Below, one piece after another: positions 9,451 to 11,315 of a stretch of 64,000 nucleotides of DNA. A program made the translations under genes and the position numbers. The DNA is taken from NCBI RefSeq assembly GCF_001553605.1, contig NZ_CP014229.1, forward strand, positions 2,570,501-2,634,500. Direction: 5' to 3'. This DNA comes from Desulfovibrio fairfieldensis. Its GTDB lineage: Bacteria > Desulfobacterota > Desulfovibrionia > Desulfovibrionales > Desulfovibrionaceae. The notes beneath the pieces are model-generated. The model was not told the DNA's origin, did no database searches, and saw only the letters and a program-made list of their open reading frames with translations. Every line of letters begins with the position of its first letter. Position 1 is the stretch's first letter.

Positions 9451-9530
9451 GGGTATAAGCCAACTTAGGAAGATAAATTTATGGAAATAAACAGGCTTGA
9501 CTCTGGGGTTTGCAAGGGGGGCTGTGATGC

Positions 9531-9587
9531 AGAGAGAGAGAGAGAGAGAGAGAGAGAGAGAGAGAGAGAGAGAGAGAGAGAGAGAGA
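9531..9587 (+). repeat. (AG)28.5 dinucleotide tract at the start of the LTA-synthase-like gene
   Basis: Fifty-seven uninterrupted bases of alternating A and G follow directly after ATGC. The ATG at 9527 has a strong ribosome binding site (AAGGGGGG, five bases upstream). Translation from it gives Met-Gln followed by Arg-Glu repeats and stops at 9697. The long downstream frame is offset by one base, so gaining one AG or losing two would join the two. This is the structure of a slipped-strand phase-variation switch; the number of units in the living population may vary. Confidence 0.9.
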
Positions 9588-9629
9588 CCGGACCGATATC
9601 CGCTCTGTCTGGCGGCCTGCGTTGCTCTG

Positions 9630-11315
9630 GTGGCGTGCCTGCGTCTTTGTCTCGCCTTGCTTTTCCCGGAACAGATTCCGCTCGGTTGGAAGATTGAACG
9701 GGTTGCCCTGGGCACCCTGCTGGACTGCGGACCATTGTTTGTATTCAGCCTGGCCGCGCTGTTCTGGAAAACGCGGCTGCTGAACATTCTTTCAGCGTTC
9801 TGGCTGCTGATTATTCTCGTCTGGAACGCCGCCAATTGTTTTCTCATTCACACGGCGCGGCGGATCATTGATTACGACATTCTGCTGCAGGTGCTGCCGG
9901 AGGCGCGGCACGCTCTGGATGCGCTTCCGGAATACGGCATAGTTGTCGTCGTCGCGGGCGCGGCGGGTGCTGCCGCGCTGACCGCCTGGCTGGTCAGAAG
10001 CCAGCGGCGCTTTGCTCTGCGGCGGTCCAAGCGCGTTCCGGCGGGGATGTTGCTGCTGCTTATTGCCATGTCCGCGCTGGCCACAGGCTATTACTGCGCC
10101 ACTCGTTACGACATGGACCGGCGGCGGGGCTGGATGAGCATTCCGGCCTGGAAAAGCGCCTGGGAAATATGGTATGACCGGCAAGAAAGCCGTAGCGCTC
10201 CGGTAGGGCCGCCACACGAAGCCCTGGCCGCCGACAGGCAGGCCATGGCCGCGTTAGGCCTGTTGCGGACAAGTCCTCCTCCGGGACACCCCTTACCTTT
10301 CCGCAATATCATTCTTGTGGCTGTGGAAAGCCTGAATCTGGAATTTCTGCACAAGTACAATGGCACTATTCCTGCCGAAGCCACGCCTCATTTTGACGCT
10401 CTGGCGGGGCGGGGCCTTGCCTGCCGCAATTTTTACACCAGCGCCGCGCCCACGGCACGCGGCCTGCACGCCCTGCTGGCTTCCCGGCTCAGTTATGACG
10501 ACGACCAGGGGAGCGCGCCCAATCTGTTCACGTCGCTGGAGCGCGCCGGTTTTACCGGCTACTATCTGAGCGCGGTGTCCGGTCGCTGGGGACACTTCAT
10601 CGACAGCGGCAGGGCAGCTTTTGCGCGACGCTACAGTCCGAGCCATATCCGTTTCCGCGAGTATTTTGAAGATAAGGTCGGGGATATCAACGAGAAATGG
10701 GGTATTGAGTCCGGCTATCTCTTTGAGGACGCGCTGGAGATCCTGCGATCGCGGCCCGGCGGCAAAAATTTCATCGTTATTTCCACCATAGAAACCCATG
10801 CGCCGTATACCACGCCAACGCGGGAAAATGAGGCCTGCGCGCGCATTCCCGCACTGGCCGGAAATACGTTTTTTATCGCTCTGTGCGCGCAGGACAGGGC
10901 GCTGGGCCATTTTCTACGCGGGCTGGAACCCTATCTGGACGACACACTGCTGATCATCACGGCTGATCACAGCGCCACGCACGGTGCCAGGTATACACAA
11001 CGGCCCGACTTTGCGCCGGACCGCATTCCCCTGATTTTTCTTTCACGCCGAGGCGTGCCGGGTCTGGGCGGCAATGGACAGGAAATCACCAGGTATTGCT
11101 CGCAAATAGATTTGAGCGTGACGCTGCTGGATTTATTGGGTCTGCCGGTGCCGCCCACATTCATGGGCAACGACATCCGGCTCAAGAATGTGGGTTGCTC
11201 CCTGTTGGAACGCAAGACCGTCCGCTTTGTGGATGCGCAGGCAGAGCGGCTGTTCGATCGCAAGGATACAACTTCCGTTATGGGGCGCTGGTTTCAGCTG
11301 TATTATCCGCGTTAG
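9630..11315 (+). CDS. LTA-synthase-like membrane phosphotransferase (alkaline phosphatase/sulfatase fold), probably phase-variable
   Basis: From GTG 9630 the frame gives 561 residues. Five membrane helices occupy about residues 1-155, the first incomplete unless upstream codons are included. An extracytoplasmic sulfatase-fold domain follows from about 225. Family metal/catalytic positions are visible: AVESL (E233), PTARG (candidate nucleophile T275), TIETHAPY (H390) and ITADHSATHG (D446-H447). Relatives such as LtaS, OpgB and phosphoethanolamine transferases transfer phosphoglycerol or phosphoethanolamine from membrane lipid to surface glycans or lipid A. The true start is likely ATG 9527, which has a much better ribosome binding site and would complete the first helix (YPLCLAACVALVACLRLC). 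The AG tract currently puts that start out of frame. If joined, the protein would be about 596 residues. Confidence 0.85.
   Translation: MACLRLCLALLFPEQIPLGWKIERVALGTLLDCGPLFVFSLAALFWKTRLLNILSAFWLLIILVWNAANCFLIHTARRIIDYDILLQVLPEARHALDALPEYGIVVVVAGAAGAAALTAWLVRSQRRFALRRSKRVPAGMLLLLIAMSALATGYYCATRYDMDRRRGWMSIPAWKSAWEIWYDRQESRSAPVGPPHEALAADRQAMAALGLLRTSPPPGHPLPFRNIILVAVESLNLEFLHKYNGTIPAEATPHFDALAGRGLACRNFYTSAAPTARGLHALLASRLSYDDDQGSAPNLFTSLERAGFTGYYLSAVSGRWGHFIDSGRAAFARRYSPSHIRFREYFEDKVGDINEKWGIESGYLFEDALEILRSRPGGKNFIVISTIETHAPYTTPTRENEACARIPALAGNTFFIALCAQDRALGHFLRGLEPYLDDTLLIITADHSATHGARYTQRPDFAPDRIPLIFLSRRGVPGLGGNGQEITRYCSQIDLSVTLLDLLGLPVPPTFMGNDIRLKNVGCSLLERKTVRFVDAQAERLFDRKDTTSVMGRWFQLYYPR

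Follow-up and report, generated by a model that had tools for sequence, protein, structure and literature searches.

AG dinucleotide tracts as candidate contingency switches at an LTA-synthase-like gene and, genome-wide, upstream of chemoreceptor genes in a Desulfovibrio

Switches driven by repeats within coding regions, the so-called contingency genes, are known in Haemophilus, Neisseria, Campylobacter and Helicobacter, and most descriptions of phase variation concern surface structures. Repeats can also act from a leader. In Streptococcus gallolyticus, the pil1 and pil3 loci are subject to phase-variable attenuation through a leader peptide that carries the repeat GCAGA (Danne et al. 2014, PMC3894217), expression being low when the leader stops well before the hairpin and high when it stops within, near or beyond it (PMC3894217). 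The chemoreceptor gene tlpB of Helicobacter pylori is controlled by the length of a G-repeat in its mRNA leader via the small RNA RepG (PMC8295292). In the part of the Helicobacter bizzozeronii report considered here, the contingency candidates include an MCP gene with a poly-C tract on its 5' side and a sulfatase-domain membrane protein that contains an AG(8) repeat (PMC3234257). The literature searched describes the leader-attenuation mechanism of Pil1 for two pilus loci in a single Streptococcus and nowhere else, and it contained no report of phase variation by repeats in Desulfovibrio.

The locus that we analysed lies in a stretch of 64,000 nt (the window), to which all coordinates without prefix refer; G000 stands for the host genome, G0xx for other genomes and Lxxx for tract loci, and the features of the locus are all on the forward strand. 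An AG tract of 28.5 units, 100% pure, occupies positions 9531-9587 and starts immediately after ATGC, the ATG being that of start A (9527-9529), with the strong, purine-rich ribosome site AAGGGGGG (9514-9521) 5 bases 5' of it, just as the original prediction had described. The 10-base AG run has 24 overlapping matches in the window, against 0.02 expected after shuffling, and the tract cannot be a chance product. The frame opened by ATG 9527 stops at 9697, and a 561-codon ORF, extending from GTG 9630 (its first start) to 11315, is one base off that frame; both points, already made in the original prediction, were found again in the list of ORFs. A frame check likewise bore out that ATG 9527, with a product MQ(RE)n..., enters the frame of the ORF after the gain of one unit (+2 bases) or the loss of two (-4 bases). 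There is a second start codon, ATG 9481-9483 (start B, product MEINRLDSGVCKGGCDA(ER)n...), with an AGGA ribosome site at 9467-9470, 10 bases 5' of it; its frame is the third one, is open through the AG tract, and would be joined to the ORF by the loss of one unit or the gain of two. Upstream lies a zinc alcohol-dehydrogenase-like gene (8371-9450), whose stop is 30 bases before ATG 9481 and whose co-transcription with the gene behind the tract is possible.

Since the frame of the 561-codon ORF is shut by TGA 9525-9527 just 5' of the tract, and neither ATG joins it, the assembled state of 28.5 units is best read as OFF. The mechanism that we propose is that slippage in the AG run would shift the frame between the start codons and the gene of a membrane phosphotransferase-like protein (sulfatase/LTA-synthase superfamily): at 28.5 units neither ATG would read into the gene, which would be turned ON through ATG 9527 by +1 or -2 units and through ATG 9481 by -1 or +2 units. 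Because the second start exists, OFF would be the state of a single repeat class out of three, one of the others using ATG 9527 and the remaining one ATG 9481, so that two of three would be ON. Hence, the earlier claim of an off or reduced assembled state stands as to OFF, but its implication that two of the three classes are OFF does not, ATG 9481 having been missed. When the three frames were checked, the long pure repeat was found to set the frame of the gene by unit number, as in a contingency gene. A Pil1-type attenuator was rejected for this locus on the grounds that no terminator is present between the tract and the gene, the tract being located inside the coding frame itself. The window locus would be an ordinary coding-frame switch, and the surprise is the genome-wide set aimed at chemoreceptors.

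The coding part 3' of the tract (9588-11315) comprises N-terminal membrane helices and a sulfatase/LTA-synthase-like domain, as judged from the ORF, the PF00884 match and the alignment of a homologue. A profile search assigned the sulfatase domain PF00884 with E=1.6e-23, and the closest solved structures were VP1736 (3lxq, E=1e-9) and, weakly, LtaS (4uoo, E=7e-4). A simple hydropathy scan detected about five hydrophobic segments at the N-terminus. Glu, Thr/Ser and Asp-His positions of the protein align with VP1736, and these we take to be, from what is general in the family, the metal-binding Glu, the nucleophile and the Asp-His pair. The name stops at LTA-synthase-like because none of the NCBIfam equivalog models matched above its cut-off; a surface glycan or lipid is a plausible substrate for an enzyme of the PF00884 family. 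The gene was found in 3 of 79 genomes of the genus, namely the host, G002 (44% identity) and G095 (42%, catalytic part), and no homologue of the protein was found among the named genome contigs.

The homologue in G002 adjoins pgk, as the host gene does, starts with MSLRKNHDIFIWCFFF..., and has no AG tract, which shows that the enzyme does not need one and counts against reading the tract as a switch. Its protein aligns with host RPDRYPLCLAACVAL..., which is encoded upstream of GTG 9630; judged by this alignment, the homologue shows that the residues just 3' of the tract are coding. GTG 9630-9632 has no clear ribosome site and splits the first membrane helix (YPLCLAACVALVACLRLCLALLF, 9597-9665, from hydropathy and the alignment to the G002 homologue). 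As the alignment extends 5' of the GTG and the GTG cuts this helix, the normal start would be at or before the tract; GTG 9630 was judged unlikely as the normal start, and a functional shortened product from it, which had been put forward originally, is unlikely as well, in support of an assembled state that is OFF. The same observations bear on an alternative in which tract length is irrelevant, the repeat being a neutral microsatellite and the gene being either decaying or always read from GTG 9630. The presence of that in-frame GTG and the rarity of the gene in the genus would fit such an alternative, but the misplaced GTG, the homologue aligning farther upstream and a 561-codon frame that is intact throughout argue against it, as do the concentration of AG tracts upstream of chemoreceptor genes, their retention at orthologous sites and the near absence of (AC)n, so that we regard it as very unlikely.

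Besides the window tract, 25 further AG tracts are present in the host genome (3.70 Mb, one contig), which gives 26 tracts (counted from 7 units upwards) with lengths of 14-40 units. Half of them (13/26) immediately precede chemoreceptor (MCP) genes; the genome contains 38 MCP genes (PF00015), and at least 12 of the 26 tracts are located no more than 300 nt upstream of one of these (binomial P about 7e-24). Other tracts are found right after the ATG of a PAS-GGDEF-EAL protein gene, in frame (L121), at genes of an SBP-GGDEF-EAL protein (L109), an MBOAT O-acyltransferase (L106) and a sulfotransferase-like protein (L120), and near the 3' end of a GGDEF-EAL protein gene (L119), while L114 has a molybdopterin enzyme gene at some distance. 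About half of the 26 tracts lie away from receptors, and for some, in intergenic DNA, no target is apparent, which counts against the general reading. A search of the genome for (AC)7 rendered a single place, beside an AG tract, and a general excess of dinucleotide repeats was rejected because (AC)7 is nearly absent. That sole (AC/TG)7 place is at L107:2876-2929 (G000:C1:2213875), where (AG)20 is directly followed by (TG)7. Two adjacent repeats in one short ORF were also observed at L118:2976-3025 (G000:C1:3040485), where a (CG)n run is followed by (GA)20 soon after the ATG.

AG tracts are numerous in a few species of the genus (G000, G099, G025, G029 and G068) and absent from most genomes of the order; an order-wide feature was rejected, 131 of 150 genomes being without a match to the tract-start pattern used. 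In other Desulfovibrio species (G025 C2:253900-270500, which is L165, together with L164 and L176), probable surface-sugar genes have AG tracts clustered near them, and sulfotransferase-like ORFs contain such tracts too, a more classical target set in which the genes were named by sequence inspection.

The comparison with the sister species G029 rendered tracts at four orthologous loci, with unit numbers that differ from those of the host. The PAS-GGDEF-EAL gene has 22.0 units in the host (L121) and 21.0 in G029 (L159), two MCP leaders have 29.0 and 29.5 units in the host against 15.5 and 7, respectively, in G029, and a further MCP orthologue has 18.0 against 12.5. Between related genomes in general, the locus pairs with differing unit number are L121/L159, L112/L158, L112/L154, L116/L161 and L182/L185. 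In two other species, a methyltransferase gene has 20.0 units, in frame (on), in one case and 20.5 units, out of frame (off), in the other. The leader of a receptor gene in G002 carries only about 4.5 AG units; a hairpin spans -110 to -66 there, and a sigma28-like site is found at -349. At the orthologous sibling loci, the position of the tract is conserved between species and its length has changed. The phase-variable configuration that had been predicted for the window locus is strongly supported by its anatomy and by these sibling loci with differing unit numbers in the sister species. It is highly probable that the window tract is a contingency switch and belongs to the set of 26, and that most receptor tracts work through a leader and a terminator; only a few tracts, such as that of the window locus and that of the PAS-GGDEF-EAL gene, would act by frame inside a coding region.

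At the receptor loci, a short leader ORF enters the AG tract, with a ribosome site at most of them, some leader ATGs being without a clear one. In a typical leader, two of the frames are closed by stops located +0 to +32 from the tract, the third is open to +115 to +214, and a strong hairpin with its T-run lies within about +31 to +92; the receptor ATG comes next. Of 11 testable loci, 9 have the layout with two frames that stop and one that runs past the hairpin, where dinucleotide shuffling would lead one to expect 2.0; the significance of this excess is optimistic, given that the pattern was noticed before the test and several leaders are paralogous. The two exceptions are the first tract of L103, whose longest frame falls one base short of the hairpin, and L154/L099 of G029, whose current frame ends inside it; counting two loci in G029 together with the first tract of L103, a shortfall of the longest frame by 1-3 bases was seen at three loci. 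No terminator was found between tract and gene at L113 and L116. At one receptor locus, the coding strand carries CT in place of AG and the layout is unchanged, which points to the frame, and not to the RNA sequence, as what matters; AG RNA as a ribosome site was rejected as a general rule because of this locus. The motif M(R/K)xxxGxPLL is, by inspection, common to the leaders of otherwise different loci and is encoded by different codons, which suggests that the leaders are translated. Three leaders are assembled with a unit number that gives read-through, unlike most of the others.

Several other features of these regions were observed. Near the receptor gene with the CT tract, by a small IS200-like transposase ORF, there is a match to the Rfam family STnc490 (L105:4576-4693, minus strand). 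The MCP gene behind the leader and tract at L111:5969-8420 (G000:C1:2404968-2407420) looks rearranged: it has an altered version of the usual ATGAAACTG start, an interruption in its first codons and a longer, fused ORF of 778 aa. An orphan leader at L112:3110-3230 (G000:C1:2415110) has an AG tract and a strong terminator with no receptor gene directly behind it, and a second complete leader follows about 450 nt farther on. Just before the start of the window, an MCP gene (G000:C1:2569416-2569955) carries an in-frame TAA in the region of the signalling domain and is possibly a pseudogene.

According to the model that we propose for most receptor tracts, the frame of the leader after the tract would decide whether ribosomes run into the hairpin of an intrinsic terminator, and their entry into the hairpin would allow transcription to reach the receptor gene. 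It could be argued that the hairpins merely end the upstream genes, that the receptor genes have promoters of their own between hairpin and ATG, and that the leader peptides are inconsequential; intergenic hairpins are indeed common, and about half of the tract loci showed no sigma28-like site in the strict scan (a looser scan was also run). However, in the 45 upstream regions of the receptor family across the genus, a terminator was found in 11 of 12 tract-bearing members against 4 of 33 tract-less ones (Fisher P=1.4e-6). Moreover, the sigma28-like sites found at tract loci (TAAA-N16-CCGATA type) are at -284 to -414, all of them upstream of the leader ORF, and the strict scan detected none between hairpin and receptor ATG at these loci, whereas several tract-less orthologues have such a site at about -70 to -95. 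In addition, two frames meet a stop directly behind the tract, and the remaining one enters or crosses the hairpin. An origin of the hairpins as terminators of upstream genes is therefore unlikely. Strong hairpins before receptor genes could also be expected if the leaders were riboswitches or other known structured RNAs with the AG repeat as a by-product, but no leader matched any Rfam family at gathering thresholds, and the sequences of the hairpins differ from locus to locus with a constant layout, which makes this second alternative extremely improbable.

The placement of the tracts is non-random and they are associated with terminators. We infer that the tracts slip in living cells, that the sigma28-like sites are used as promoters, that antitermination operates and that a phenotype results. 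Taken together, the data suggest that the sensory repertoire is probably shuffled at random, through a dozen-odd sigma28-type chemoreceptor genes with independent attenuators as well as coding switches for c-di-GMP and surface functions. If this is true, cells of one clone would differ in the signals that they follow and in the surface that they show, and the main target in this sulfate-reducing genus would appear to be the set of chemotaxis receptors together with c-di-GMP enzymes. Annotated genomes would then miscall genes such as that of the membrane enzyme described here as truncated. A direct test is also opened, namely the search for single cells of a clone that differ in chemotaxis through repeat length.

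Compared with the coding-region switches of Haemophilus, Neisseria, Campylobacter and Helicobacter, the LTA-synthase-like gene and several of its siblings likewise carry a pure repeat soon after the start codon, so placed that joining depends on the frame, whereas the window locus differs in having start codons in two frames. The AG(8) candidate of H. bizzozeronii shares with the window locus the repeat unit and the enzyme superfamily, and a chemoreceptor is listed there too, but it has only 8 units, was predicted from one genome in which homopolymers dominate, and comes with no leader-terminator layout in the part of the report considered (PMC3234257). LtaS/VP1736-type enzymes (PDB 4uoo, 3lxq) have, like the protein of the window, a PF00884 domain and N-terminal membrane helices, the similarity being low (E=7e-4 and 1e-9, respectively) and without an equivalog match. 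With tlpB of H. pylori, the receptor loci have in common that a simple repeat of variable length is located in the leader of a chemoreceptor mRNA (PMC8295292); control of tlpB is graded and relies on pairing with a small RNA, whereas a frame-dependent attenuation is proposed here. The receptor loci apparently match the attenuator of Pil1: at pil1 and pil3 the repeat is also found in a short leader ORF with a ribosome site, a terminator hairpin precedes the gene, and, depending on the frame, the leader ends either well ahead of the hairpin or inside, next to or past it (PMC3894217). The loci described here differ from pil in the AG/CT dinucleotide, in the chemoreceptors as targets, in their number of about a dozen per genome, in the putative sigma28-like promoters and in the phylum, and attenuation of the Pil1 type would then have had a second, independent origin in a different phylum, with a spread to about a dozen genes there.
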